Below are positions 43,590-62,784 of a stretch of DNA of 64,000 nt, piece after piece (the first letter of the stretch is position 1; each line of letters begins with the position of its first letter). Where the stretch lies: contig PYIZ01000006.1 of assembly GCA_003635265.1 (NCBI GenBank), positions 82,736-146,735 on the forward strand, in the 5' to 3' direction. Under the pieces are notes generated by a model. It saw only the letters and a program-made list of their open reading frames with translations. It was not told the origin of the DNA and made no database searches. The stretch comes from Candidatus Poribacteria bacterium (GTDB lineage: Bacteria; Poribacteria; WGA-4E; PCPOR2b). A program made the translations under genes and the position numbers.

Positions 43590-46500
43590 TCAGACGGGTG
43601 TTGTGAGTGCTTTCTGCAGAAATCGTCCTGTGTGCGATTCCTCTGTAGTTATGACCTCCTCTGGTGTTCCCATAGCAACGACCTTCCCACCTTCAGCCCC
43701 GCCATCGGGACCTAGGTCAATAATCCAATCAGCAGATTTGATTACGTCCATGTTGTGCTCAATGATGACAATCGTGTTGCCTTTATCCACCAAACGGTTG
43801 AGCACCATCAGCAGCTTCTGTACATCATCGAAATGCAGACCTGTCGTCGGCTCGTCCATGATATAGATGGTTTTGCCTGTGCTGCGCTTTGAGAGTTCAC
43901 GCGCTAGCTTGACACGTTGGGACTCACCGCCAGAAAGTGTTGTTGCCGCTTGACCGAGTTCGATGTAATCCAGACCAACGTCGTATAACATCTGCAGCGG
44001 TCTATAGATAGTCGGTACGCTTTGGAAATGATCTAGTGCTTCCTGCACTGTCATCGCTAGAATATCAGCGATGTTTTTGCCCTTGTAGTAGATTTGCAAT
44101 GTTTCGTGGTTATAGCCGGTGCCGCCGCAGGTTTCACATTTTACCCACACATCCGCGAGAAAGTGCATTTCAACCTTATTGAAGCCGTGCCCACGACATG
44201 TTTCGCACTGTCCCGTTTTCTGATTGAAACTGAATCGACGGGAATCAAAACCATGTACCTTGGCGTCCGGCAGATCGGCGAATAGATAGCGAATCTTGGT
44301 GAATAGGTCGGTATAGGTTGCAGGATTGGATCGTGGAGTATCCCCGATTGGCTGCTGATCGATGTTGATTACTTTGTCGAGACAGTCCAAGCCATAAATC
44401 GATCGATACTTTCCTGCCCGCATCCGGGTTCGGTTCAGATTAGACACAAGAACGGGATACAACGTTTCCTCAATCAATGAGCTCTTTCCTGAACCGGACA
44501 CCCCCGTTACGCATGTCAGTGTTCCCAACGGAATCTCGACATCGACATTCTGCAGGTTATTGGTTCGGACGCCTATCATCTCAAGCCACTCGCCTTTGCC
44601 TTGGCGCCTTTGCGGAGGAACTTCGATCTTGAGTTTTCCTGTGAGATATCCACCCGTTAGCGAGTTTTCGCTCTGCTGGATTTCAGTTGGCGAACCGGTA
44701 GCGACAATCTCACCGCCAAACTTCCCAGCGCGAGGACCAAAATCGAGTATATGATCCGATGCCAACATGGTTTCCAAGTCATGTTCAACAACTAGGACAC
44801 TGTTGCCGAGATCTCGAAGCCCTTTCAATGCGTTCAAGAGTCGTTCCTGATCTCGCTGATGCAGTCCGATACTCGGTTCATCAAGGATATACGTTACCCC
44901 TGTGAGTCCACTGCCGAGTTGGCTTGCCAGACGGATGCGCTGCATCTCTCCGCCTGAGAGACTGGGTGCGGGCCGATCTAGCGTCAGATAATGCAATCCA
45001 ATATCCACGAGGAATCGGAGTCGTTGTTGGATCTCCTTGAGCAATGTTCCACCAATTTCCATCTGATGTGTCAGCAGATTAAGGTATTCAAAGAAGTCGG
45101 CAGTCCTTCCAATTGGCATCGCCGTTAGCTCTGCGATGGTTTCCCCGCCCAACGTTACGCCTCTTGCTAGGGGTTGGATTCGCGTGCCCTCACATTCCTG
45201 ACAAGTATACAACCGATGCCCGATTGTCCCTATACCTTCGCACGCCGGGCATTGACCGATAGAACTGTTGAATGAGAAGTAGCGGGGTGTCAGTTCGGGG
45301 AAACTCAAACCGCACGGGACACAGGCGAAATGCTCGCTGAATACATGATGCGTAATTTCCGCCCTTCTACCCGCTCGCTTCCCTTCATTTATCACTCCCA
45401 CCGCCACGATGCCGCCGCTCTGTTGCGTTGCCGTTTCGACAGCTTCTGCCAGACGCCCGCGTTCATCAGGTTCAAGGGCGAGGCGATCGACGACAATTTT
45501 GACATCGTGTCGGATACTCTTTCCAATCTTTGGTGCTCGATCTATTGGGTGAACCTCTCCGTCAATTTCGACACGGGCATAGCCGTCACGTTGTAAACGT
45601 TGGAAAGCGTCGGGATAATCCTCATTAGGTCGCAGCACGAGCGGAGACAAAACATAAAGCCGCGCTCCACTTGCCAATGCCACGATTTTGTCAACGATTT
45701 GCTGTACAGATTGAACGCTGATTTCCGACCCGCACTGCGTGCAGTGAGCAGTTCCGATTCGTGCATAAAGCACGCGCAGATAGTCGTAAATTTCTGTGAC
45801 TGTCCCGACCGTAGACCGTGGGTTCTTACTCGGTGCCTTCTGCTCAATCGCAATTGCTGGCGAGAGTCCCTCAATCTTCTCAACTTTCGGCTTTTCTAAC
45901 TGCCCTAAGAACTGCCGTGCATACGCTGAAAGGGATTCGACGTAGCGTCGTTGTCCTTCTGCATAGATTGTGTCCAATGCCAGCGACGATTTCCCTGAAC
46001 CACTCACCCCGGTGAATGTCGTGAACTTCCGATGAGGAATATCTACGTTGATATGTTTCAGATTGTGCTCATGCGCGCCATGCACGGAGATATATTCCCC
46101 TTCATTATTGTTGGTCAATTCATAAGAGGCTGTTGATTCCTGTAAGATGTGCGGGTTACTGTGTGTTGCGTATTGCGTGCTATCAATTGAAAGCTTTTCC
46201 AATTTGCTCCGCTCCAGTGCTGGCTGCAACGCTATCCCCGTATACGATTCCTCAACAGTTGTTACCTCCTCTGGTGTCCCTGTTGCAACAACATAGCCGC
46301 CCTCTTCACCGCCCTCGGGACCGAGGTCAATAAGATAGTCCGCTGTTTTTACTATCTCCAAGTTGTGCTCAATGACGATAACGGTATTGCCCACATCGAC
46401 AAGTTGGTGCAATACCTCTAGGAGTTTTTTTACATCGTCAAAGTGCAACCCTGTCGTTGGCTCATCGAGGATATAGAGGGTTTTGCCTGTGCTCCGCTTC

Positions 46501-49100
46501 GCAAGCTCCCGCGCCAGTTTAATTCGTTGTGCCTCACCACCGGAGAGTGTCGGTGCTGGCTGTCCAAGCTTTATGTAGTCCAGACCGACATCGTGCAGAG
46601 TTTGTAAAATCTTCGCAATCTTCGGAACGTTCGCAAAGTGTTCTAACGCTTCTTGCACATCCATATTAAGCACATCGGAAATATTCGCTCCCCGGTATTC
46701 AACTTGTAGCGTTTCGTCATTGTATCGTTTTCCCTGACAAATATTGCACTTTACCCAGACATCGGCGATAAAGTGCATTTCGATCCGCTTTGAGCCGTTG
46801 CCTTCGCAGGCTTCGCATCGACCACCCTTTACATTGAAACTGAACCGTCCCGGTTTGTAACCGCGCAGTTTAGCCTCAGTCATCTCAGCGTAAAGCGCGC
46901 GGATCTGATCAAACACTTTGGTGTATGTGGCAGGATTCGATCTCGGGGTGCGCCCAATCGGTGATTGATCGATATCAATCACTTTATCGATGACTTCGTC
47001 AATTGGAGCTGAAGATGTACATTGTGTCTGATCGCTCGAAGATTTTTCCTCCGTAATAATTGCCCGTATGAGATCATATTCCCCCGGCTGTGCATGTGCC
47101 TTCATCAGATCGCGGCCGAGTGCTTCGTATAGAATATCGTTGATGAGTGAACTTTTGCCAGAGCCGCTGACCCCTGTCACGCAGGTAAAGACTCCGAGTG
47201 GGACTTGTACATCAACGTCTTTGAGGTTGTTGTGACGTGCGCCACAGACCTCGATCCATTGATTACCAGTTGGACGGCGTTCAGTAGGAATTTCGATCTG
47301 CTGTTCCCCACGAAGATATTGTGCTGTCAGGGAGGTTGAATTCTTGGCAATCTCTTGCGGTGTGCCGATTGCTGCAATCTCACCACCCTTGATTCCCGGT
47401 CCCGGTCCAAAGTCAACGATCATATCTCCCGCCCACATTGTATCTTCGTCATGTTCGACAACGATTACCGTGTTGCCTTGGTCTCGGAGATGTTTGAGCG
47501 TCGTGAGCAGGTGCTGATTATCACGTGGGTGCAAGCCAATGCTCGGTTCGTCGAGGACGTAAACCACCCCTCGTAAGCCCGCTCCGATTTGACTGGCTAA
47601 CCGAATTCGTTGCGACTCGCCGCCGGAAAGTGTGGGTGCGGTTCGATCTAAGGTGAGGTAGTGCAACCCAACATTCATTAAGAACCAAAGGCGTCCCTGA
47701 ATCTCTTTCAGCAAATCAGTCGCAATGAACGCCTCGCGCGCCGGCAGTTCGAGTTTTTCAAAGAACTTAAAACAATCTCCAACTGCCATTTCGACGACAT
47801 CAAGGATGGATTGCCCGTCGATTGTCACAGCCTTGACCTCTGGCTTGAGTCGTGTCCCGTTGCAATCTGGGCACGTACCGGAAACCATGTATTTTCCGTA
47901 GTAACGTTTCACAAGTTCGGAAGATGCTTGGAAATACTTTCTTTCTTCGGGCGGAATCACCCCCTCAAATACGGCTTCGTACTTATAGCGGCGATTACGG
48001 CGGGAACGATAGACGAAAGGAATCTGCTCTTTTCCAGTGCCATAAAGGATTGCGTGTTGGTGCTGCTCGTTCAACTGTTTCCACGGTGTATCGAGGCTAA
48101 AGCCGAAGTGTGCAGCCAAACTCTCGGCGTGGTGTCGGGTCTGTAGTGTGCCCAGCTGTCCCCAAAAGACAATCGCCCCCTCCCGAATTGATTGCGTTGG
48201 ATCAGGGACAACCATATCGGGGTCCATCTTTGTCAGTGTTCCGAGCCCTTTACAGGTCGAACACATCCCCGCGGGACTGTTGAAAGAGAAATTTCGCGGG
48301 GCGGGCGGTTCATAGCTGATATTGCAGTGCACACAGGTGTAATCCACCCCAAATAAGAGATCTCCCGCCTCTGGTTCTCCTTCGACGATGCTTACAATCA
48401 GGCGGCCCTCTCCCATACGCAGCGCGGTTTCAACCGCTTCTGCAACGCGGCTGCGAATATCAGGTTTAACAACGATTCGATCAACGACGATTTCAATGTT
48501 ATGTCGCTGGTTGCGGTCAAGCTGAATTTCGGCTGGCAGGTCGTAGATCTGTCCATCGATTCGGGCACGGATAAACCCCGCCTTGAGCGCGTCCTCAAGG
48601 TGCTCACGATATTCTCCACGACGCCCACTGACGATTGGGGCAAGGATTAAGATGCGGGTCTGCGGTGGTAGGTTGACGATTTGGTCAATAATTGCTTCTG
48701 TGGTTTGAGCACCCACCGGCGCACCGCACTTTAGGCAGTGCGGCGTGCCCACGCGCGCAAATAGGACACGTAGGTAGTCATAGATCTCTGTAATTGTTGC
48801 GACCGTTGAGCGTGGGTTGTTCCCGCCCGACTTCTGATCAATTGATATGGATGGGGAGAGTCCGCCAATGAAATCAACGTCGGGTTTTTCCAGTTGTCCA
48901 AGGAATTGGCGGGCGTAAGCGGAAAGGGATTCGATGTAGCGGCGTTGACCTTCAGCGTAGATTGTATCAAATGCGAGCGATGATTTCCCGGAACCGCTGA
49001 CACCGGTGAAAACGATGAGATTGTCTTTGGGGAGTTTGAGATCGATATTTCTGAGATTATGTTCGCGTGCGCCGCGTATATCAATAAATTCTTCCGGCAT
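43590..49100 (-). CDS. uvrA: Double-length excinuclease subunit UvrA (tandem fusion)
   Basis: Nucleotide-excision-repair damage sensor. The 1836-residue chain is two UvrA units in one. Four Walker A sites GVSGSGKSS lie at about residues 32, 645, 1030 and 1530. There are four LSGGE signatures and four Walker B motifs (LDEPSIGLH or DEPTTGLH types), all intact. The first unit (about 1-985) has the UvrB-binding region, zinc finger 1, the insertion domain and the DNA-binding zinc finger 2 (CEACEGNG...[10 protein letters not shown]). The second (about 1000-1836) keeps the two ATPases and both zinc fingers, but runs directly from CPACEGIGT to [11 protein letters not shown], without the roughly 110-residue insertion domain. 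ATG 49100 is preferred because AGAGGG lies 6 nt upstream; an ATG 16 codons earlier is also open. Tandem UvrA is known from Chlamydiae. Confidence 0.95.
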
Positions 49101-49187
49101 AGATTTCCCTCTGGCTGAAGATCTTTCCGTAATTACAGGCGATTCCATTCATCTAGCGAGATTCTGTATCCTAATATATTCTCGACT

Positions 49188-49340: not shown

Positions 49341-49730
49341 TTACAAGGTCGCCATCTTTGAGCCATCCTTTGCCTCGTTCAAGTTGATTCCATTAATCAC
49401 TGGGATAGAGATGTCGCGCTGACGTTTAACAAGGATCCAATCATACAATACGGACACTAACTCACGCTGACATTCAGCAAGAGTTGGTCCAAATGCCACA
49501 ACCCCAGTGCAATCAGGTATTGTTCCGGCGTAGCTTTTATCTCTTAGTTTCTGATAATCGGCATTTTCAGTTGCAGCTGCGATGTAGCGTCGGCAGGAGG
49601 TTTCAAAATCATCAGCAGGTTCACTTGATAAAAAAGTGATAATGACTTGAGATTGAGAAATATCTGGAAGCGGTTCCAAAGGGTGTACTACGCCGTTTTC
49701 GTAAATCCCTCTGACTGCGAATAAGCTCAT
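49341..49730 (-). CDS. Antitoxin-like fusion: DUF104-type N-terminus and HicB-type C-terminus
   Basis: A 129-residue protein that looks like two antitoxin-type segments joined. Residues 1-35 (VRGIYENGVVHPLEPLPDI then SQVIITFL) follow the DUF104/AF2212-like antitoxin pattern of YENG-[VI]-x-P-L-E-P. Residues about 45-115 (YIAAATENADYQKLRDKSYAG, IPDCTGVVAFGPTLAECQRE, LVSVLYDWILVKRQ, IPVINGINLNEA) match HicB-type antitoxins. HicB normally pairs with a small HicA toxin; no HicA-like or VapC-like ORF is next to it, so it is an orphan here. A TnpB element starts 130 nt upstream and may have separated it from a partner. The start is ATG 49730, with AAAGGAG upstream. Confidence 0.72.
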   Translation of the reverse strand: MSLFAVRGIYENGVVHPLEPLPDISQSQVIITFLSSEPADDFETSCRRYIAAATENADYQKLRDKSYAGTIPDCTGVVAFGPTLAECQRELVSVLYDWILVKRQRDISIPVINGINLNEAKDGSKMATL

Positions 49731-51566: not shown

Positions 51567-51657
51567 CTTTTGTAGGTTTGGTATTAGAACGCAAGTTGCT
51601 AGTGTTGAGTATGGAAACTCGACCTACAGGCTAACTTTTGTAGGTTTGATATTAGAA
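51567..51657. repeat. 23-bp direct repeat with internal inverted segment
   Basis: CTTTTGTAGGTTTG-[G/A]-TATTAGAA occurs at 51567-51589 and 51635-51657 (one mismatch). Between them lies ACCTACA (51622-51628), the inverse of TGTAGGT (51571-51577). The second copy overlaps the lptD stop. It looks like the relic of a small palindromic repeat. Confidence 0.6.
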
Positions 51658-54600
51658 GTAGGAACGTCCAAGTGAGTTTCCGACACCGAAGGAGTCGTAA
51701 GGGACGCCAGCGGGCAGACTACGGAATCCCCATGTATCCGTTGTCGCATCATAGCCAACTCCAACTGAGGCAGCGGGTTCTGCAATCAGATTAATCTGGA
51801 AAGTGAAATCTTGCCGCACATTATCGTAGGGCGGGTCCCGCTTAATCCCGATGCGATGCCATCTAATTGTCATGTTCCAATTATGCAGGTTGCGTCGTAA
51901 CATTATACTCTGCGAGTAGAACTGTTTTTCGATCCAGTCATAATTGACGCTGAGATTTAACTCAAGTAAATGGCTTGGACGAAATCGAAAACTGCCTGTG
52001 AGACTTCGAGAGGCGTATTGTGTTCTTTTGGTAAAGGCATTTCCGACCGTTACGTTCCATTTGTCGCGGCGATAACTGACGTTGGATCGGAAGCCAACCT
52101 GTTTGAATCGTTTTCCGTCCAAACGCGATTCATTCGGATCATGTGTTGATCTGAACGTGATATTCAGGGCTCGGCTCGCTAGCGGAACTATCGTCATTCT
52201 ACTTTCAATCGGTACATATCGACGTTCACCCAACGCCTCAAATTTGGTAAAATCCGCCGCTATTCGCGTATAAAACTGGAGCACACGAAGCGCGGATCGA
52301 CTGCCGCGGGTCTTAACTTCAATACTAGTATCGAAGTTATAGGAGAGGTTTTTCCTTTCAAAGAAGTAAACACTAGGACCAAAAGGATAGAGTGGTGGAG
52401 CATCTTCTCTCTCGACAGGCGGTGAGTAATCAAATGTTACCCTTGAGTTGATTTGGTGGCGCATTCGACGCGCTCCCGGAATGTAACTAATGTCATAGAT
52501 CCGAAACAGCAGATTGCTGGCGGACAACCGCGTACCGTATATACCCCGGAAAATATTCTGGTTTCCTTCTCGGTCTTTGTCATGCCAAATGAGGTTTGTA
52601 TCAAAATCCATGTCGAGTCGCAATTCTCGATTCGGAATTATCTGTAGTACCGATTGCTTACGAAGATCAAAACCGAGGTCCATCGTTTGTAAATAGATAT
52701 TCTCTTCGTCTCGAAACCGTTCACGGAAAAAATTACCGAGATCCACATCCAAATCGAAACTGGTGCTCTCAAGCGTTGGAATGGCAAACATCGAAAGAAT
52801 TGGGAGATCGGTGTGCAGTGCCTCCGCGACTTTAGTCAAACGCGAGTTGATGCTTTCAAACACAGGCAGCCGATCTAAGCGCATGCGCGACAGCGAAAGT
52901 TCAAGTGCAGGTAACTTTTGCAAGGTTGTTGTTCCTTCATCGGTGAGGTTTAAGGTATGATTAACCTGAAACCTACCCAAGAACTCCCCGATTGTCTTGC
53001 TTGAAAATCTTAAGTTTCCCTCCTCATCTCTATCCTCACGATCTAGTGCAGAATAGGCGGTCCCCCACGTGAACACACCAAAAGAGTTAAGCGCAGATTC
53101 CTCGATCCCAAACCCTTCCTCTTCAAAATCTTTTGCTCGCCACGCTACACGTCCCACAAAACTCGCGGGTCGTCGTCCCTTCGCTCGGCTGTCCCAAGGG
53201 GTGTAGAAGGTATGCCGATGCCCCCACCGCATATTCCATCGTCTCCCCGTTTTGAACGGCTTTCGGCGATCGAAAGAAAATTCATCGTTGGTGTAGAAGT
53301 AAAAGTCGCCCCTATAAGTACGCTTTTTATCGATTTTAATCAGACGATACGCTTTACTGCCCTTAAGTATTCCGCTGTGCTCGCCGCCATAGAGTCGCTG
53401 CCCTTGTGTGTAAATTATGGTCGGCACCTCCCATCGTCCCCGATAATCGTATTTTTGGTAGATCTGTACCTTCTCCGGTTCTTCCGAGGGATCTACCGTC
53501 TCATCGTCCCCAATTTGATCGGGATTTAAAGAATTTTGTGCACTATCTTCTTGTACTCCTATCTCGCTCTCCTCTTCCATTCTTTCCTCGTCCCCATTTA
53601 TCTCGTTGTCATTCTGTTCTTTCGTTCCTTCTTCCATCTGTTCAATTTCATTCTCTTCTGTCGTTGCATCTTTCCCGAATTGCTCCTCCATCATTGCCCA
53701 CTCCGCTTCAAATTGACGTGCGATTTCTTCAAAGGTCGGGGTCGGCTCCTTTTCGATTAATTCAAGGATATAGACACCTTGATCGGTATATATGGGCCAA
53801 GTTATTGCTCCGGGAGCTTCTAGTCGGCTTACAGAGTGTTTCCAACGTCGATCCATTTCATTCAGCAGAAACCCTGCGCCTTCATTGGCTTCAGAAAGTT
53901 CAACTCCCTCATATTGCCCGGCTAATTCTTCGAGAACCTCTCCTGCCTCTGCACGTGCTTGAATTTCCTCAGCGGTCGATCGGATTGCGTTGCGAGTTTC
54001 CTCGCTTGGTTCTATCGCTACGTCTATTCGACGGATCTGGAATTCTTGTTGACCATATACATCAAGCACACGGTCAACCTTTAAGATATGAAACCCGGAT
54101 TCCGTTCTCAGAATCGGTGTAATTTCGCCCGGTTTCAGTTGAAAAACCGCCTCTTCGAGGATTGGATCCAGTCGAAGTTCATCTTCCTCATCGCGCTCTC
54201 CACGTACTAGAAAACCCATGTCACCGCCCTGATAGCGCGTATCCTGATGGGTCGAGTCAGCTTGTGCAGTCGCTGCAAAGTCTGCGTTCGCTTCCTGTAG
54301 TTTGGCATGGATGTTTTCCGCCTTTTCCTGAGCAGCAGTAATATCTTCTTCGGAGATCTGATACTCCAGAAAGAGTTGCCGCAGCTTATACAGATCATAC
54401 TCGCCCTCCAGACGATCCGCTAACTCCTGCGCTTTCTCCTCCAATTTTGTCCGATCACTTGGCGTTGCATTGGGAGGCAAAGGCACAACGATTTCTTGGA
54501 ACTTGAAATCGTTTACGCGGTATTTTCCGTCAGCGCCGAGCCCACTTCCTCGACGAGCAGAATGATCAAACAGCAGGGCACCGTCGTATCGAAAGCGGCG

Positions 54601-55626
54601 TGCAAGCGGCAAGATTACGCTAAGGAATACCCCCTGATAGCTACTTGTTCCAACTTTGACGATTACCTTGGCTACTTTGTCTTCTTGGCGAAGATCGCGG
54701 CGGTAGGCAGGAAAATAGAAGAGCGGTACACCACCAACTCTCAGGACAATATTTGTAGCAATCAATTCTTTGTTTATCCTGACGATAATCTTTGATGCGC
54801 TGAAGTAATAATGGGGATGCTTGAGAGAGCATGTTGTCAACGCCCCACCACGGATGTAGGATTCATCATCTTCGGTCTTAAAAATTTCAGTGCCGCGATA
54901 GTACCACGGGTCACTGAAACTGAATCCCTCGCGAATGATACCTTTTTTTGTTTCAATGTTGAAAAGGAGTTCGTTTGCATAGGTTTCTTCGTTTCCGACG
55001 AGCAGGTGCACATTTCCCGCTGCCCGCATCACATTTTCATCGAAATCCGCCCAGATATGGTCAGCATAGAGCACAACCTCGTCGTATTTGATTAGTCCGT
55101 TGCCGTGAATCTGAATCAGGTTATCGTGAAAAGTGAGATTGTCGCCTTTTGCAAGAAGGTCCCCTTCCTCAGGTGACATATTCTCTGGATCGAGTTTTCG
55201 GCTGGCTTGGGTGGATTCTTCAGGTGTAGGTGAATCTGTTGCTGATGGGGTTTCTGACGTTTCTTCAGGAGGTTCTGGGGGTGACTCTCCTTCGTTGGGT
55301 ACTTCGGGAGCAGGTGGATCTTCAGTTGGCGTAGTTTCTGATGATGCTTCAGTCTGTTCGTCCGAAACAGCTTCCTCGGCAGTAGATGCAGGGTCGGTTT
55401 GCGCACCTAATTCACCTGTGGGCAAAATTAAGTTAAGCGTGAGAATCGTGAGCGATAGAACATGAGGTGTAAAACGGGAGGCACGGAGAACAAGACGTAA
55501 AGCGTAAGGTACGTCCTGCAGAAAGCGGCTAAGGAATTGGAAACAAGGAGGTTTGGACAACCGGATAGTTGATTCCTCCCTGTTGTCTACTATTTTCTGC
55601 CATTTCCGTTTTTCCCTCCTTTCCAT
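51652..55626 (-). CDS. lptD: LptD-like LPS-assembly outer-membrane protein with an embedded parvulin-like region
   Basis: A 1324-residue protein. LptD inserts lipopolysaccharide into the outer leaflet. A hydrophobic signal-like stretch lies at about 53-75 behind an unusual basic extension, then a Pro/Glu/Ser/Thr-rich region (about 78-145). The periplasmic jelly-roll (OstA/LptA-like) domain spans about 155-310, with the LptD landmarks LTTCSLKHPHYYFSASKI and VLRVGGVPLFYFPAYRRDLR. Residues about 380-630 are foreign to LptD: GGDMGFLVRGE, EEAVFQLKPGEITPIL and SGFHILKVDRVLD are the signature of a parvulin (SurA/PpiC) prolyl isomerase, and a second weaker unit (about 525-625) ends VYILELIEKE. An acidic linker (about 630-720) leads to the LptD C-terminal barrel (about 720-1324). 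AGGAAAGG precedes the ATG. It is the last gene after surA in the operon. Confidence 0.88.
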   Translation of the reverse strand: MERREKRKWQKIVDNREESTIRLSKPPCFQFLSRFLQDVPYALRLVLRASRFTPHVLSLTILTLNLILPTGELGAQTDPASTAEEAVSDEQTEASSETTPTEDPPAPEVPNEGESPPEPPEETSETPSATDSPTPEESTQASRKLDPENMSPEEGDLLAKGDNLTFHDNLIQIHGNGLIKYDEVVLYADHIWADFDENVMRAAGNVHLLVGNEETYANELLFNIETKKGIIREGFSFSDPWYYRGTEIFKTEDDESYIRGGALTTCSLKHPHYYFSASKIIVRINKELIATNIVLRVGGVPLFYFPAYRRDLRQEDKVAKVIVKVGTSSYQGVFLSVILPLARRFRYDGALLFDHSARRGSGLGADGKYRVNDFKFQEIVVPLPPNATPSDRTKLEEKAQELADRLEGEYDLYKLRQLFLEYQISEEDITAAQEKAENIHAKLQEANADFAATAQADSTHQDTRYQGGDMGFLVRGERDEEDELRLDPILEEAVFQLKPGEITPILRTESGFHILKVDRVLDVYGQQEFQIRRIDVAIEPSEETRNAIRSTAEEIQARAEAGEVLEELAGQYEGVELSEANEGAGFLLNEMDRRWKHSVSRLEAPGAITWPIYTDQGVYILELIEKEPTPTFEEIARQFEAEWAMMEEQFGKDATTEENEIEQMEEGTKEQNDNEINGDEERMEEESEIGVQEDSAQNSLNPDQIGDDETVDPSEEPEKVQIYQKYDYRGRWEVPTIIYTQGQRLYGGEHSGILKGSKAYRLIKIDKKRTYRGDFYFYTNDEFSFDRRKPFKTGRRWNMRWGHRHTFYTPWDSRAKGRRPASFVGRVAWRAKDFEEEGFGIEESALNSFGVFTWGTAYSALDREDRDEEGNLRFSSKTIGEFLGRFQVNHTLNLTDEGTTTLQKLPALELSLSRMRLDRLPVFESINSRLTKVAEALHTDLPILSMFAIPTLESTSFDLDVDLGNFFRERFRDEENIYLQTMDLGFDLRKQSVLQIIPNRELRLDMDFDTNLIWHDKDREGNQNIFRGIYGTRLSASNLLFRIYDISYIPGARRMRHQINSRVTFDYSPPVEREDAPPLYPFGPSVYFFERKNLSYNFDTSIEVKTRGSRSALRVLQFYTRIAADFTKFEALGERRYVPIESRMTIVPLASRALNITFRSTHDPNESRLDGKRFKQVGFRSNVSYRRDKWNVTVGNAFTKRTQYASRSLTGSFRFRPSHLLELNLSVNYDWIEKQFYSQSIMLRRNLHNWNMTIRWHRIGIKRDPPYDNVRQDFTFQINLIAEPAASVGVGYDATTDTWGFRSLPAGVPYDSFGVGNSLGRSYF

Positions 55627-55755: not shown

Positions 55756-57054
55756 CTATTTAAGTTCCTCTTTGATTTTTATAAACGAATTTTCCTTGAG
55801 CAGATCTGTGTAAATCTGCCATTCCTCTTGGAATTTTTGCTGACGCAGCATCATTCGGATCTGGTTCTTTTCAACATCGGTCAATTCAGGGGCAGTACGA
55901 CTATCGATCTTGAAAATATGCACGCCATATGTCGTTTTGATGGGTGTGCTATGCACTCCGATGGAAAGTCCTTCGATAATTTTTCGGGTTTCAGGGTTTA
56001 ACTCGCTGAGTGCACGAATCCCGAGATCACCACTGTTAGCTTTCGTCTGTGAATCGTCGGAGTATTGTTGGGCAAGCGCGTTGAAATCTTCACCTTGATT
56101 TAACCGCTGCAACAGGCTATCTGCGCGTTCATGAGCATCTTCAATCGCCTGCTCACTCGGTTTCAAACTGACAACGAGATGACGAAATGCTATGGTCAGA
56201 TCATCTTTACGCTCAACTTTGAAAAGATAAAACCCATCATTGCCTTCAACCGGTTCACTGATCTCGCCAGCGTTGAGCTCTGAAAGTGTATTGCGGAAGG
56301 TAGCCGAGAGGTTATCCATCTCTGCAATCGGCAGTTCGTTTAGTCCTCCAACTCCTGCATTTCTATGCTCATCGTCAGCGTGGCGTTGCGCGAGTTCTTC
56401 AAAATCTTTTCCAGCCTCTAATTCCCGAAGAATTGTATCGAATTTCTCAAGGGCTAGTTTGCGATCTGCCTCGCTTGGCTTGAAAGCAATGAAGATGTGT
56501 CGAAGGTGGACGGTATCTGTCTTAGTTGGCAATTGCGAGCGATTTTCTTCAAAAAACTTCTGTATGTCCGAGTCGCGAACTTGGAGTCTAGGGAGGATAC
56601 GTTGCATTACAAGTCGTTCCGCCATTAAGTTGCGTTTAGCTTGTTCACGGAAAGACATCAGAGTGTAACCTTCCTTTTTTAATGCTTGAGCAAGTTCCTC
56701 TTCGGTCTCGATCTTGTACTGGTCTTTGAAGTTTTGCAGATACTGCTCCACTTCAGCCTCTGTGATTTCAATTTTTAGCGTTAATGCTGTTTCGACGAGA
56801 AGCATTTGGCGAATCAACTGATCGAGAAGTGCATCCCGTTCCTGCTCCGCCTTTTGCATCGCTTCGCGCTCAGTGAACCGGTAGACTTGCTGAAGTTCGA
56901 GTGCTTTTTGCTTGACAACGCTGTCGAGTTCCCATTTGGTGATCACGTCTTGGTTGACATAAGCGATGATCTGATCAAACCTTCGCGCAGCAATGGGATT
57001 GAACCCAAAATGGATGATCAATAGAATCAGGGTGCATAAACGCAGTATCTTCAT
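55756..57054 (-). CDS. surA: Periplasmic chaperone / prolyl isomerase SurA-like
   Basis: Periplasmic chaperone that escorts outer-membrane proteins such as LptD to the BAM machinery. The 432 residues have a signal peptide (1-23), the SurA N-terminal chaperone domain opening FDQIIAYVNQDVITKWELD (about 26-170), and two parvulin domains. P1 is about 182-282 (LRHIFIAFKPSE, GGLNELPIAEM, EGNDGFYLFKVE). P2 is about 286-384 (FRHLVVSLKPS, SGDLGIRALSELN, TTYGVHIFKID). The layout and length are those of E. coli SurA. It sits 129 nt upstream of lptD, the same neighbour as in E. coli, and 36 nt downstream of a parvulin lipoprotein gene. GGAGG precedes the ATG. Confidence 0.93.
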   Translation of the reverse strand: MKILRLCTLILLIIHFGFNPIAARRFDQIIAYVNQDVITKWELDSVVKQKALELQQVYRFTEREAMQKAEQERDALLDQLIRQMLLVETALTLKIEITEAEVEQYLQNFKDQYKIETEEELAQALKKEGYTLMSFREQAKRNLMAERLVMQRILPRLQVRDSDIQKFFEENRSQLPTKTDTVHLRHIFIAFKPSEADRKLALEKFDTILRELEAGKDFEELAQRHADDEHRNAGVGGLNELPIAEMDNLSATFRNTLSELNAGEISEPVEGNDGFYLFKVERKDDLTIAFRHLVVSLKPSEQAIEDAHERADSLLQRLNQGEDFNALAQQYSDDSQTKANSGDLGIRALSELNPETRKIIEGLSIGVHSTPIKTTYGVHIFKIDSRTAPELTDVEKNQIRMMLRQQKFQEEWQIYTDLLKENSFIKIKEELK

Positions 57055-57090: not shown

Positions 57091-58083
57091 TTATGGTTCT
57101 GTTTCAGACTCAACAGGGGTGTCACTCTCATCCGTCGATTCGGTTTCTGCTTCCTCCTCCGGCTCTGGTGCGTCAGGGATTCGGTCTGAAAAGGTCTTGA
57201 CCTTTGCCTGTTCGTGGAGTCGGATCAGCCAATCGGTCATAAGTTCTTCACGCTTCTGATTCTGTACGTGTCTTTCCACATTGCGTCGGACACTGTTTTC
57301 TTCAAGCGTTTGTTGGCGTGCCGGCTGGACTTCCTCCTTACGGAAGATTAGGTAATAGTGTTCCTCATCTAGTTCGATATGGAGAATCTCCTCGTTCATT
57401 TGACCGACTTCGAACTCAAACGCTGCATCGCTAAAAGGTTTTGCGCGTCGTGAATACATTGTGTTATCGAAAAAGTCAGTGTCACCGGGGATTTCGTTAT
57501 TTGATCCTGGACCGATTAATTCCCCGTTTTCAGCTAGCTCCGCAGCAAGGTCAGCAATATCTTCCCCATCTTTGATTCGTTGAAAAACTTCATTTGCTCG
57601 TTCTTCATTTTGGACGGTTATGCAGGTCAGTCGCACCTTTTCCAGCACAACATAATCTGCCTTATTTTCTTCATAATAGAGCTTGTAATCTTCCTCGGTC
57701 GGTTTAAGTTTCTGGTCTACTTCAATTTCTGTGATTCTGTCAACGAGCAGTTCATGGTAATAGTCCTGCACTTTTTTCATGACTCCGGGATCCTCATCAA
57801 GCTTGCGATCCTTGGCAAGGCAAAGTATGAGACGACTCTCGGCCATAAGATTCATATATTCCGCATATCCACCTTCTGCTTCTTGGTACTGTGGTTGTTT
57901 ATAGGTAGGAAGTTCACTTATCTCCTGTAGCATCTCCTCAAGCGTGATATGGTGTTTTCCATTCCATTCAAATTCAGCGATCACAGTACCTTCAGCCCCG
58001 GCTTTGCCGCCACAACCATTCAACGAAATGCTCACAGCAACGGCACCGATTAAGATAAAACCAATAATTCCCAATAATTTCAC
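57091..58083 (-). CDS. Parvulin-type (PpiC) peptidyl-prolyl isomerase lipoprotein
   Basis: A 330-residue exported protein with a lipobox SLNGC (Cys24), so it is probably a lipid-anchored periplasmic foldase. After an N-terminal helical region (about 40-125) comes a parvulin domain (about 145-255) with VRLTCITVQNEERANEVFQ, GDTDFFDNTMYSRR, AFEFEVGQMNEE and HYYLIFRKEE. A Pro/Glu/Thr-rich acidic tail ends the protein. The start is GTG at 58083 with GGAGG 7 nt upstream. Clear similarity in plan to the next protein (58188) points to a duplication. It lies in the mfd-parvulin-parvulin-surA-lptD run and likely helps fold outer-membrane proteins. Confidence 0.86.
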   Translation of the reverse strand: MKLLGIIGFILIGAVAVSISLNGCGGKAGAEGTVIAEFEWNGKHHITLEEMLQEISELPTYKQPQYQEAEGGYAEYMNLMAESRLILCLAKDRKLDEDPGVMKKVQDYYHELLVDRITEIEVDQKLKPTEEDYKLYYEENKADYVVLEKVRLTCITVQNEERANEVFQRIKDGEDIADLAAELAENGELIGPGSNNEIPGDTDFFDNTMYSRRAKPFSDAAFEFEVGQMNEEILHIELDEEHYYLIFRKEEVQPARQQTLEENSVRRNVERHVQNQKREELMTDWLIRLHEQAKVKTFSDRIPDAPEPEEEAETESTDESDTPVESETEP

Positions 58084-58187: not shown

Positions 58188-59150
58188 CTACTGCTCCGAT
58201 TGTTCATTTTCCGGATCTTCTTCCTCTTCGGGTGTCACAGGCGGAGGGAGCAGTTCTGGATATGTTTTGAGTTTGCCCTCGGCAATAAGCACTTCCAACC
58301 ATTCTAGGATGCGCTTCCGCTTCATCTCACGCTTTAGGGGATACTCAAGCCTCGGCTTGACCTCTTCAAAGGTCTGTTGACGTTCTGGCCGATGTTCTTC
58401 CTTTTGGAAGATCATATAATAGATGTCCTCTTCGACGTCCTGTACAAAAACTTCTTCAGTCATTTCGCCAACTTCCATTGCAAAAACCGCGTCTACAAAT
58501 GCTTGGGCACGTGCGGAGACGTCTCGAGCAAAAAAGCCTGTATCACCGGGATCGCCCGGATTTGAACCGGGTCCTGTCAATACACCTTTTTCCGAAAGTT
58601 CTTTTACTGCATCAAAGATGTCCTTACCGGCTTGAATTTCCTCCAATGTTGTCTGTGCGAGTTCCTTATCGAATAGCGTGATGCAGGTTGCTCGAACTTT
58701 TTCCTCATCCACATACGTATCTTTATTTTCTTCGTAATACTGCCGAAGCGTTTCCTCGGTGACGACAATTTTTTCGTCAACCTCAATTTCGGTCAAGCGT
58801 TCAACCATCAGTTGATGCTCATAGTCATCCGCTTTTTTGAGGAACGTTTCATCTTTGTCAAATCCTGCCTCAGCCGCTGCGAGGAGCATTAGCCTTTGGT
58901 TGATAAGGTCTTCCAGAAATATGAGTTTACCAGCTTTGGACTGATAGCCTTTCTGTTTATATTCTGATAGTGCTGCTATTTCCGCATTAAGTGTTGCAAG
59001 CGAAATTTCGTGTACCCCATTCCATTCGTACCGAGCCACAATAATCTGGCTCTCATCCATTGGTCCGGCTACATCTTGCGACTGGACAATCTGCCAACTA
59101 CTCAAACCGATTGCTGCAGTCACGACGAAAATTATCAATATTCTTTTCAT
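58188..59150 (-). CDS. Parvulin-type (PpiC) periplasmic peptidyl-prolyl isomerase
   Basis: A 320-residue exported foldase with an N-terminal signal sequence (about 1-25) and no lipobox, so it should be soluble or signal-anchored in the periplasm. The plan matches its neighbour at 57091: N-terminal helices (about 45-130), then a parvulin domain (about 145-250) with VRATCITLFDKELAQTTLE, GDTGFFARDVSARAQAF, AVFAMEVGEMTEE and IYYMIFQKEEH, and a Pro/Glu-rich tail. The paralogues share the pattern LTEIEVDEK...YYEENK. AAAGGA lies 14 nt before the ATG. It is 104 nt upstream of the lipoprotein and 145 nt downstream of mfd. Confidence 0.85.
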   Translation of the reverse strand: MKRILIIFVVTAAIGLSSWQIVQSQDVAGPMDESQIIVARYEWNGVHEISLATLNAEIAALSEYKQKGYQSKAGKLIFLEDLINQRLMLLAAAEAGFDKDETFLKKADDYEHQLMVERLTEIEVDEKIVVTEETLRQYYEENKDTYVDEEKVRATCITLFDKELAQTTLEEIQAGKDIFDAVKELSEKGVLTGPGSNPGDPGDTGFFARDVSARAQAFVDAVFAMEVGEMTEEVFVQDVEEDIYYMIFQKEEHRPERQQTFEEVKPRLEYPLKREMKRKRILEWLEVLIAEGKLKTYPELLPPPVTPEEEEDPENEQSEQ

Positions 59151-59295: not shown

Positions 59296-62200
59296 TCACA
59301 TTAATTTCCCCAAGATACGCTTGAGCTCAAACAGGAGTGCTTTTCCCTCCAATTCTTTCAAACGGATCATCATACGTGCAGGGGGCGTAATCGAGACTCG
59401 CCGATCCTGTTCAATCAGTCGAATCAGTTTACGGGGGTCAAGGCTTGTTTTAGCTTCATCAAATGTGACCTTGATGCTTTCTTCGCCTGCGGCGATTCCA
59501 TCAACCCCAAGCTGTTGACTGAGTTGTTTTAAGTCGGCGATTTCGAGGAGCATCTCAACCGGTTCGGGGATTTTTCCATACCGGTCTGCCATCTCCTCTT
59601 CAATTTCTTTCCGATCTACTACCGTTTCTAGGGCAGCGATCTTTTTATAAAGTGCAACCTTCTGCTGGCTGTCCGGGACATATTCATCAGGCAGATAGGC
59701 TTCGATGGGAAGGTTAATCCGGGTTTCGACTGTTTCTTCAATCTCCTCACCCTTGAGTTTTTGTATCGCTTCCTCAAGGAGTTTGCAGTACATATCGTAA
59801 CCCACAGCGATGATATGACCGTGTTGCTCTGAACCGAGAATATTGCCAGTTCCCCGAATCTCGAGGTCGCGAAGGGCAATCTTAAACCCGGAGCCAAGGT
59901 CAGTAAATTCTTCAATGACCCGGAGGCGTTTTTGAGCACCTTCCGTAATTGCCCATCCTTGTGGGTAGAATAGGTAGCCGTAAGCTTGATACTGATCGCG
60001 ACCGACCCGCCCGCGTAACTGGTAAAGTTGGGCTAACCCAAACGCGTCTGCGCGATTGATTAGAATCGTGTTTACGGCTGGAATATCCACGCCAGACTCA
60101 ATAATCATGGTACAGACCAAAACGTCATATTTGTGGTTGATGAATTCCATCATCACTTTTTCTAGCTGACGTTCAGGCATTTGCCCATGTGCCATACAAA
60201 CTCTAGCGTGTGGTACGAGATCTTGGATTGTGGCAGCAATACTTGCGATACTCTGGACACGGTTGTGAACAAAAAAGGTCTGTCCGCCCCGTTCCATCTC
60301 TCGCAAGATCGCATCTCGAACCACGTCGGGATTATACTCCATGACATAAGTTTCAATTGGCAGGCGATTTTCCGGGGGCGTATTGATTACGCTGAAGTCG
60401 CGGATGCCGACAAGAGACATATGAAGTGTACGCGGAATCGGTGTCGCTGTCAAGGTTAATACGTCAACCGTCTGCTTCATCTGTTTGATCTTTTCTTTGT
60501 GCTTCACTCCGAAGCGATGTTCCTCATCAACTACGAGCAAACCGAGTTCCCGGAACTTAATATTTTTTGAGAGCAGGGCGTGGGTTCCGATAACGATGTC
60601 AACTGTACCATTTGCTAGTCCCTGCACAACGCTTTTCGCTTCTTTATCCGTTCGGAAGCGATTCAGCATTTCGACCTGAACGGGAAAAGGAGCAAAACGC
60701 TGCTGAAATGTGTTAAAGTGTTGCAGTGTGAGAATTGTAGTTGGGGCAAGCAAGGCAACCTGTTTTCCTGCCATCACTGATTTGAACGCTGCACGAAGTG
60801 CTACTTCGGTCTTTCCGTATCCGACATCTCCGCAGATTAGCCGATCCATGGGTCGAAGACGTTCCATATCCTGTTTGACCTCTTCGATTGCTGTCTGCTG
60901 ATCCGGGGTTTCTTCATAAGGGAACAGTACCTCAAACTCTTTCTGCCAAGGGGTATCCGTTGGGAAGGCATAACCCTCTCGGGATTCACGGATCGCATAC
61001 AATTCCAGTAATTCCTCTGCCATTTGCTCTATGGAGGCTTTGGCTTTGGCTTTGACCCGTTCCCATGACGTGCCACCGAGTTTGTCCAGACGTATCCTTC
61101 CCTCGTCTTGTCCACCGATATACTTCTGCACGAGATCAATTTGATAGGTTGGAACATACAACCTACCTGCGTCTGCATAGTCTAGCGCGAGGAAGTCCTG
61201 CGGTTTCCCATCAATGTCGAGGCGACGAATACCTGCGTAGCGACCGATTCCGTGTGAGACATGCACCACATAATCCTTTTCCTTGAGGTCAATTAAACTC
61301 AGGATAGGAGTGCCTTCCTTAAAGGAAATCTTGCGATGCCGGCGATGCTCACGTCCAAACAACTCATCCTCAGACAGTGTGATGAACTTGAGGGGTTCAC
61401 TAATAAATCCCTCGCTGATGCTGCCGATATTCACCGCCGTCTGCGTTGCAGGTAAATCCCGATCTGCCAAGATATTGTGTAGCCGATCTGCGCTCTTAGG
61501 GTTATCACAGAAGAAGTTGACGAAATAGCCCTCGTCAATCCATCCTTTGATCTGATCCATAATCCTCCGATAATTGCTGCGTGGCAGACCAAGCGGACGC
61601 ATCCCGAAGGGAAGCTCTTCAACCGGTTCCTCTGCATTAAGTGCTGGCGGAGTCAACGACGAGCGAACGAAGGGATACGTCTGCAAAGCGGATATTACCC
61701 ATTCAAACGGTACAAACGTCTCATCGGGTGACACCATAAACTGATCGAACGCTAGTTTTCGTGCATAAAGATCCTTCGTATTTTCGATAAGTTGAGTTGC
61801 TTCACGTGCCATCCAAGCTGGTTCAATCATGAGGACGATAGTCTGTGGGGATAGATAATCCATGAGGGTACTGGTCTCTTGATATAGCATCGGAAGTAGA
61901 GCTTCCAGTCCCTCCGGATTGCTTTCTGTTTCGAGGCGGTGCGTAATCTCGTTGACTGTGTTTCGGTACTTAGGCGATTCGTTGCTTTGAATTAATGTCT
62001 CCGCGCGGGTTTTCCACAGATTGAGAGTTTTGGGGGACAGGATAATTTCTCGAACCGGACACAGTGTTATAACTTCCGGTTCGTCATCAATTCCATCGGC
62101 AACAGAGCGTTGAGAAGCCGGATCAAACAACCGAATAGCGTCGATTTCGTCGCCGAAGAACTCAATCCGGATGGGTGCATCGGTGGTCAACGGGTAAACG

Positions 62201-62784
62201 TCCAGAATGTCGCCACGACGGGCTAACTCGCCCTTGACTTCTACGAGATCTACGCGCTGATAACCGTTGTGCAACAGTTGTTCAACCACTTTGTCGGGGG
62301 CAATCTCATCGCCGATACGGAGGGTCAGAAAGGCAGATTCTACAACCGATTGAGGCAGGATCTTATGCATCAATGCTTGGATCGATGTAACAATGAACGT
62401 GCGATCTCCCTTCAACAGTTGATACAAACAGATTAGCCGTTCTGCAACAACATTTTTTGTTGGAGAAATACCGTCATAAAGGAAATTCTGCCATTGCGGA
62501 AAGAGATGGGGTTCTTCAAAATGATAGGCGGGTAGATCTTGAATGATTTTCTCAGCCTCGTGCTGCGTGGGCACGACAATGAGAAAGGATTCGTCGGCGA
62601 AATCGGCTGCCAATGTACTGAGCAGATAGGCAGTAGAGGCGCCATGCAGACCGCGCAACCAAGGTTTGGGGCGATCTATTTGCTGATTTAACGAGGTTTG
62701 GGCACACTCCGACCCTGAAAACTGAGCGGTCAGGGTTTCAACAAGCGATTGATAGGTGTTTGACTGCTGCAGAAAATCTATCAC
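59296..62784 (-). CDS. mfd: Transcription-repair coupling factor Mfd
   Basis: DNA translocase of 1162 residues that removes stalled RNA polymerase and recruits UvrA to the damage. The N-terminal UvrB-like module (about 40-250) is followed by the RNA-polymerase-interacting (CarD-like) domain at about 500-565 (DYVVHVSHGIGRYAG). The RecG-like motor has Walker A GDVGYGKTE (652-660), the DEEH box (753-756), TLTATPIPRTLHMSL and the C-terminal QLRGRVGRDQYQAYGYLF. The TRCF C-terminal domain that masks UvrA binding is present (about 1000-1140). The start is GTG at 62784 with AAGGAAC 5 nt upstream. It follows the DUF3108 gene by 9 nt, so the two are co-transcribed. UvrA at 43590 is its natural partner. 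Confidence 0.97.
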   Translation of the reverse strand: MIDFLQQSNTYQSLVETLTAQFSGSECAQTSLNQQIDRPKPWLRGLHGASTAYLLSTLAADFADESFLIVVPTQHEAEKIIQDLPAYHFEEPHLFPQWQNFLYDGISPTKNVVAERLICLYQLLKGDRTFIVTSIQALMHKILPQSVVESAFLTLRIGDEIAPDKVVEQLLHNGYQRVDLVEVKGELARRGDILDVYPLTTDAPIRIEFFGDEIDAIRLFDPASQRSVADGIDDEPEVITLCPVREIILSPKTLNLWKTRAETLIQSNESPKYRNTVNEITHRLETESNPEGLEALLPMLYQETSTLMDYLSPQTIVLMIEPAWMAREATQLIENTKDLYARKLAFDQFMVSPDETFVPFEWVISALQTYPFVRSSLTPPALNAEEPVEELPFGMRPLGLPRSNYRRIMDQIKGWIDEGYFVNFFCDNPKSADRLHNILADRDLPATQTAVNIGSISEGFISEPLKFITLSEDELFGREHRRHRKISFKEGTPILSLIDLKEKDYVVHVSHGIGRYAGIRRLDIDGKPQDFLALDYADAGRLYVPTYQIDLVQKYIGGQDEGRIRLDKLGGTSWERVKAKAKASIEQMAEELLELYAIRESREGYAFPTDTPWQKEFEVLFPYEETPDQQTAIEEVKQDMERLRPMDRLICGDVGYGKTEVALRAAFKSVMAGKQVALLAPTTILTLQHFNTFQQRFAPFPVQVEMLNRFRTDKEAKSVVQGLANGTVDIVIGTHALLSKNIKFRELGLLVVDEEHRFGVKHKEKIKQMKQTVDVLTLTATPIPRTLHMSLVGIRDFSVINTPPENRLPIETYVMEYNPDVVRDAILREMERGGQTFFVHNRVQSIASIAATIQDLVPHARVCMAHGQMPERQLEKVMMEFINHKYDVLVCTMIIESGVDIPAVNTILINRADAFGLAQLYQLRGRVGRDQYQAYGYLFYPQGWAITEGAQKRLRVIEEFTDLGSGFKIALRDLEIRGTGNILGSEQHGHIIAVGYDMYCKLLEEAIQKLKGEEIEETVETRINLPIEAYLPDEYVPDSQQKVALYKKIAALETVVDRKEIEEEMADRYGKIPEPVEMLLEIADLKQLSQQLGVDGIAAGEESIKVTFDEAKTSLDPRKLIRLIEQDRRVSITPPARMMIRLKELEGKALLFELKRILGKLM

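Follow-up and report, generated by a model that had tools for sequence, protein, structure and literature searches.

A parvulin-domain insert within LptD of Candidatus Poribacteria

The lptD locus and the identity of its product

The window analyzed here, a 64,000-nucleotide stretch of a Candidatus Poribacteria contig, carries an open reading frame of 1324 amino acids (51652-55626) that was taken from the ORF list, gave Foldseek matches to LptD and is kept throughout the phylum. It is the sole LptD candidate found in its own genome. All features for which coordinates are given below lie on the minus strand. The domains of the protein appear to follow each other in the order jellyroll, two predicted barrel strands, parvulin insert (residues ~367-775) and remaining barrel. 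A Pro/Glu/Thr-rich low-complexity linker, recognized by eye and poorly conserved, follows the signal-like region at residues ~76-145 (55192-55401).

Directly upstream of lptD lies a surA-like gene (55756-57054), identified by the SurA_N and Pfam families, whose product combines SurA_N with two parvulins. It is preceded by two further conserved neighbors identified by Pfam as PpiC-like genes, encoding proteins of 330 (57091-58083) and 320 amino acids (58188-59150), and the conserved cluster is headed by an mfd-like gene (59296-62784) that was named by eye and not by a family search. This same-strand order, mfd - ppiC - ppiC - surA - lptD, is conserved. The surA gene is located just upstream of lptD in 59 of the 60 loci at which the upstream sequence exceeds 600 bases; at the remaining locus (L076) surA is also present, in a stop-to-stop frame that overlaps by 155 bases.

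On the other side of lptD, an ORF of 1852 amino acids (43590-49148) encodes two UvrA copies head to tail, in which the UvrA interaction domain occurs twice and the UvrA DNA-binding domain (PF17755) once only. A TnpB/OrfB gene of the IS200/IS605 type (PF01385, PF07282; 49859-51133) is located between lptD and this double uvrA, as is a 129-amino-acid protein with a UPF0150-like domain (PF21748, E 1.7e-20; 49341-49730), which is presumably of the HicB type. The double uvrA also adjoins lptD in L063, L065, L066 and L104, and in L066 a gap of only ~170 bases separates it from lptD.

The 1324-residue protein is LptD, the LPS translocon protein of Candidatus Poribacteria. Two NCBIfam LptD models matched its N-terminal part, PRK04423 at residues 130-384 (E 1.5e-5) and PRK03761 at residues 160-366 (E 1e-4), both far under the whole-protein cut-off. 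A profile of the N-terminal slice, built from 22 orthologues, matched one LptD in the PDB, that of N. gonorrhoeae (7omm, E 6e-5), and in this alignment the TC(S) cysteine and a GGVPL stretch are in register. The OstA/LptD jellyroll (residues ~157-313, including C266; 54688-55158) is therefore present by the NCBIfam matches, the 7omm profile match and the strands of the AlphaFold2 (AF2) model.

An AF2 model of residues 146-1324, computed from 66 alignment rows, had a mean pLDDT of 72 and a pTM of only 0.50. When the PDB was searched with this full model using Foldseek, ranks 1 to 24 were all LptD entries (E 7e-17 to 9e-9), at low TM-scores by query length of 0.22-0.33. Rank 1 was 4q35 (E 7e-17, 1232 alignment columns), which bears only the entry title 'Structure of a membrane protein' and which we take to be an LptD structure, and rank 2 was the LptDEM structure 9kn3 (E 8e-17). 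The prolyl isomerase (PPIase) 8hm4 (E 2e-8), more LptD entries and SurA (1m5y, E 5e-5) followed below these ranks.

The rest of the beta-barrel (residues 776-1324; 51655-53301) was recognized by its fold, in the Foldseek ranks 1 to 24, and not by the Pfam LptD barrel model PF04453. PF04453, a narrow model with matches in just two of 14 control genomes, had no match anywhere in the poribacterial genome. The barrel profile alone had no sequence match in the PDB. A second family, PF19838 (LptD_2), passed its cut-off in the lptD orthologue of six of the 12 genomes examined, and did not match the window's own LptD protein; beyond the orthologous ORFs of the 12 genomes it matched only one weak, interrupted piece, in G059.

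The same genome encodes LptE (PF04390, E 8e-8), LpxC, two LptF/LptG-type permeases and one LptA-type protein, and LptE was detected in nine of 12 genomes at E ≤ 0.1, in eight of them above the cut-off. An LptE-free assembly, as initially suggested, is therefore not supported. Compared with an E. coli-type LptD, the poribacterial protein shares the jellyroll, the TC motif and an LptD-like barrel fold, as well as the single LptD candidate beside LptA-type, LptE, LptF/G and LpxC proteins. However, it has ~400 extra residues, with parvulins after two predicted barrel strands, it lacks the inter-domain disulfide cysteines, and it is left unmatched by PF04453.

The parvulin insert

The inserted region comprises residues ~367-775 (53302-54528). 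Pfam Rotamase (PF00639) matched the protein with an E-value of 1.7e-26 and a bit score of 93 (cut-off 21.7), in two stretches of which the best covers residues 425-518, in the very region that the initial annotation had singled out as parvulin-like. The same family was matched in 20 of 21 phylum-wide rows, the exception (L045:3370-4749) being a barrel fragment without the insert region. An HMM derived from poribacterial SurA parvulins mapped P1 (residues 410-522; 54061-54399; E 1.5e-20) to columns 3-104 and P2 (residues 523-632; 53731-54060; E 3.4e-12) to columns 4-106 in nearly all full-length rows, and hhalign aligned the two domains to SurA parvulins with a probability of 99.5-99.7 (99.7 for P2 with SurA P2). 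An AF2 model of residues 364-782 alone had block pLDDT values of 80-94 except at the two ends and in an acidic linker, and Foldseek matched this insert-only model to the PPIase 8hm4 (E 2e-11), PpiD (8zht) and SurA (1m5y, E 2e-6). P1 and P2 were thus computed to have the parvulin fold, both as complete domains.

Residues 399-637 are 29% identical to the adjacent SurA, which is the only other own-genome match of the LptD protein among the matches listed, and the insert profile matched SurA 1m5y with an E-value of 4e-17. Both proteins have the tandem P1-P2 in the same order, in agreement with the initial view of an LptD with a built-in SurA-like parvulin module. The sequence text on which that view was based was found at the expected places (LTTCSLK at residue 263, GGDMGFLVRGE at 467, LKPGEITPIL at 497 and SGFHILKVDRV at 510). 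In contrast to SurA, the poribacterial LptD lacks the SurA N-terminal domain, since the SurA_N families match the neighbor at 55756-57054 and are absent from the LptD protein; the first active-site histidine is lost; and the parvulins seem to lie inside a split third one, as part of a barrel protein. The parvulin fold and the GGD(L/M)G and GFHI text are also shared with PrsA, PpiC and PpiD. These foldases are stand-alone or membrane-anchored proteins and, to our knowledge, not parts of an outer-membrane barrel.

Sequence matches and models suggest that the regions flanking P1 and P2 most likely represent a third parvulin that is split in sequence, with a first piece (P0) before P1, a second (P3) after P2, and P1 and P2 nested inside. 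The argument for the split is that the flanking pieces match complementary parvulin columns: in hhalign runs without a background control, residues 368-409 matched columns 2-39 only (probability 30-82), residues 628-642 and 720-776 matched columns 38-112 only (probability 97), and the two pieces joined reached a probability of 98. P0 (residues 367-409; 54400-54528) would contribute the first strand and helix, as it was modeled by AF2, and its piece matched HMM columns 2-41 weakly in four of 54 ORFs (E 9e-4 to 0.04). P3 (residues 633-775; 53302-53730) would form the remainder of the domain. In relatives from other families the third unit matched from HMM columns 32-40 onward only (E 1.6e-4 to 1.7e-12), while in the order to which the window belongs just the last ~30 columns were matched, weakly (E 1e-4 to 0.04). 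The window's own P0 and P3 had no Pfam match and no match to the parvulin HMM at E < 0.05, and the third unit of this protein was read from aligned relatives and from the model.

Among eight other-family relatives scanned, three Pfam Rotamase stretches were found in L034, L035, L036 and L039, whereas L041 had four such stretches and L037, L040 and the fragment L043 had two each. In the insert-only AF2 model the first (model residues 5-19) and last strands (396-411) were confidently predicted, whereas the acidic linker inside P3 (residues ~654-717; 53476-53667), also delimited by the alignment, had a pLDDT below 50. Relatives from other families, L034-L041 among them, lack this linker, which occurs in the order to which the window belongs. 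A reading of the insert as two parvulins only was rejected on the basis of the relatives' third Rotamase stretch together with the hhalign, HMM and AF2 results. The extent given by the initial annotation changes accordingly: the insert covers residues ~367-775 and not 380-630; the unit described as weaker and as reaching to ~625 exists, and is a full parvulin domain; and a barrel is present, while the strands placed from ~720 onward start ~55 residues too early, residues 720-775 being most likely the end of the third parvulin.

An extra parvulin was observed at a second place in the barrel of L041 (residues ~755-876; G059) and L043 (~249-378; G058), which belong to other classes of the phylum. 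It sits between positions matching window residues ~938 and 951, and its column order, 31-106 (24-106 in L043) followed by 4-39 (6-39), is like that of a circularly permuted domain.

Conservation and selection across the phylum

Among the matches listed, the protein was matched in 57 of the 58 genomes that represent the order, counting the genome it comes from, and in 83 of 84 genomes of the phylum at E ≤ 0.001; G008 had no match, and G076 and G079 had matches of just E 3-6e-4 that may represent another gene. Two alignments were used to follow the insert. The first (A3) has 52 rows, made up of 54 extracted ORFs minus L001 (the window), L015 and the first L045 piece, plus a trimmed window row; five rows lacking one flank were set aside, and the 47 left comprise 46 distinct barrel sequences, L029 and L053 being one gene. 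The second (A4) has 66 rows, the window and 65 of 66 ORFs (L077 omitted), of which seven were set aside. The two alignments have 36 barrel sequences in common. Further sets were A5, with 61 of the 66 rows, and A6 and A7, with 22 of 49 and 21 of 50 available slices.

Wherever a row covered the jellyroll as well as the barrel, it also contained the insert, 323-502 residues long (47/47 in A3 and 59/59 in A4); together these rows represent 69 distinct barrel sequences. Seven of the complete rows (L066, L071, L072, L097, L115, L118 and L121) are located on chromosome-length records. In a contig scan, whose patterns were themselves poribacterial, all 65 loci belonged to Poribacteria.

The ratio dN/dS was determined for the closest 14 of 34 pairs, 12 of which were informative, as one pair consisted of copies and one was repeated. 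For P0, P1, P2 and P3 it was 0-0.2 in most of the 12 informative pairs. The values of P1 and P2 were somewhat above those of jellyroll and barrel (mostly 0.01-0.11), and the highest parvulin values, 0.23-0.35, came from short stretches in very close pairs. The acidic linker evolves fast, with values of 0.13-0.5 in the pairs that have it. The insert is under purifying selection.

These data bear on the explanation that the arrangement is an artefact or a relic, either an assembly chimera or an old gene fusion without function. No observation in its favor was found. A chimera is ruled out by the insert in all 69 distinct two-flank orthologues, chromosome-length records included, which also settles the concern about the assembly raised by the initial annotation; a non-functional relic is ruled out by the purifying selection. 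We therefore regard this explanation as extremely improbable.

A domain tree of 53 sequences, with 13 chosen LptD rows per domain, six SurA rows per domain and two PpiC-like domains, recovered P3 as a single well-supported group (99/99) and P2 as another whose support is modest (81/81), and placed 12 of the 13 P1 rows together (97/96). From these groupings of P1, P2 and P3, the data fit an origin of the insert domains before the phylum spread. A SurA origin of P1 and P2 was not resolved by this tree of 53 domain sequences. In the titles and abstract openings of the open-access literature, no description of an LptD with parvulin, PPIase, PpiC or SurA parts was found, and no open-access paper on Poribacteria and LptD. 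LptD, SurA and parvulins are each already known; what appears to be new is their combination, the position in the barrel and the probable split and nested layout.

Position, active site and possible role of the insert

According to the accessible part of PMC4353691, the barrel of LptD comprises the strands beta1-26 together with loops L1-13 and, on the periplasmic side, turns T1-12, and its lateral gate lies between beta1 and beta26. Beta1 of LptD would start near residue 225. Two predicted barrel strands precede the insert (residues ~314-366; 54529-54687), and the NCBIfam match to LptD extends to residue 366, position 273 of the 783 in the PRK03761 profile. Together with the known layout of strands and turns, this end of the LptD homology suggests that the insert most likely fills T1, between barrel strands 2 and 3, on the periplasmic side below the beta1/beta26 gate. 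The placement rests on the sequence alignment, since the strands at 314-365 were modeled with a pLDDT below 50. In both AF2 models the terminal strands of the insert are long, with 15-18 residues.

The active-site histidines of the parvulin Pin1 are His59 and His157 (PMC6557836, excerpt). Mapped onto the alignment by eye, the first position corresponds to Q417 in P1 (57 of 61 rows, with a histidine in none) and to R533 in P2 (59/61, with a histidine in one). The second histidine is retained in P1, as H513 in 59 of 61 rows, while P2 has Y619 at this position (Tyr in 57/61, His in 4/61). The full histidine pair is thus absent from both domains. Such losses are not peculiar to LptD, since the parvulins of the adjacent SurA have partly lost these residues too: SurA P1 has kept the first histidine in 25 of 30 rows and the second in only ten, and SurA P2 the first in only 12 and the second in 24. 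The loss of one histidine suggests that catalysis by P1 and P2 would be weak. Some PPIase activity is possible, because H513 is kept, the losses in SurA are alike, and the role of the parvulin active-site histidines is itself described as unresolved in the available portion of PMC2678132.

If the insert were a foldase of general use in the periplasm, held at the outer membrane with LptD as a mere anchor, it would serve other clients. Such a role would agree with the foldase-type domains and with the further parvulin pieces that L041 and L043 have elsewhere in the protein. It appears unlikely, given that the first active-site histidine is absent from P1 and P2 and that dedicated SurA and PpiC-like proteins exist.

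The cysteines also set the protein apart. In E. coli, disulfides join the jellyroll and the barrel of LptD (PMC4353691 and PMC10567701, both as partly available). In the poribacterial proteins C266 of the jellyroll is the only recurrent cysteine (A3: Cys in 39/47 and Ser in 8/47; A4: Cys in 57/59), and no conserved cysteine was found in the barrel or the insert in the 47 rows of A3 and the 59 rows of A4. With this single recurrent cysteine and no conserved partner in the barrel, the long-range jellyroll-barrel disulfide of the E. coli type (C173-C727) is absent and disulfides of this kind cannot form; the disulfide assembly that had initially been considered is not supported.

Both the missing cysteines and the lost first histidines of P1 and P2 would suit an insert that acts as a rigid scaffold or gating element, positioning the jellyroll, LptA or LptE, or coupling the arrival of LPS to gate opening, with no role in isomerization or folding. 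Its probable location next to the beta1/beta26 gate and the long end strands, which look as if continuous with the barrel strands, point in the same direction. We consider this a possible but less likely explanation, as the nearest kin of the insert are the chaperone and foldase domains of SurA and PrsA, the lptD gene is located behind surA, and nothing ties the insert to LPS.

The reading that we tentatively prefer is that the insert is a periplasmic chaperone or docking module, probably weakly or non-catalytic, located at T1 below the gate and serving LptD's own assembly. The idea of the initial annotation that the module may guide the folding of its own barrel is compatible with this reading. 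Barrel strands 2 and 3 would anchor the split third parvulin at both ends, P1 and P2 would be nested in the loop between its helix 1 and helix 2, and the resulting three-parvulin module would hang in the periplasm just under the beta1/beta26 lateral gate. There it may act as a built-in chaperone and docking arm and not as an efficient prolyl isomerase, holding the late strands of LptD or its jellyroll in cis during the assembly of the very large barrel by BAM and SurA. It may also keep the jellyroll aligned with the barrel, an alignment that disulfides help to achieve in E. coli. However, the need for a built-in helper is not self-evident, given that the adjacent genes already provide a separate SurA and two PpiC-like proteins.

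The conserved cluster mfd-ppiC-ppiC-surA-lptD is in line with parvulins that serve for docking only, recruiting BAM, SurA or the neighboring PpiC-like proteins, or binding the protein's own Pro-rich N-terminal linker. SurA docks on BAM (PMC13067283, as far as available), and a proline-rich segment is indeed present at residues 76-145, but relatives have a linker that is short or differs greatly, and we judge such a function doubtful.

A further reading, which we offer as a speculation of low probability, is that a foldase checkpoint replaces the disulfide checkpoint that activates LptD in E. coli. The split parvulin, running on into barrel strands 2 and 3, and the P1-P2 pair nested in it would clamp the jellyroll or the last strands and would let go of them only after barrel closure and the arrival of LptE, so that a built-in chaperone licenses the LPS gate.

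The quality control of LptD has been studied mostly in enterobacteria. LptD carries out the last step of LPS export, is strictly essential in E. coli and is a slow-folding barrel (from the available part of PMC13067283). With chaperone-type domains in every complete LptD examined, the known disulfides precluded, and surA and two foldase-type genes adjoining, Poribacteria offer a natural experiment on how the maturation of LptD and the activation of its gate are controlled. The insert further suggests that a barrel turn beside the lateral gate can accommodate a large folded module, and that splitting and nesting of parvulins is possible.
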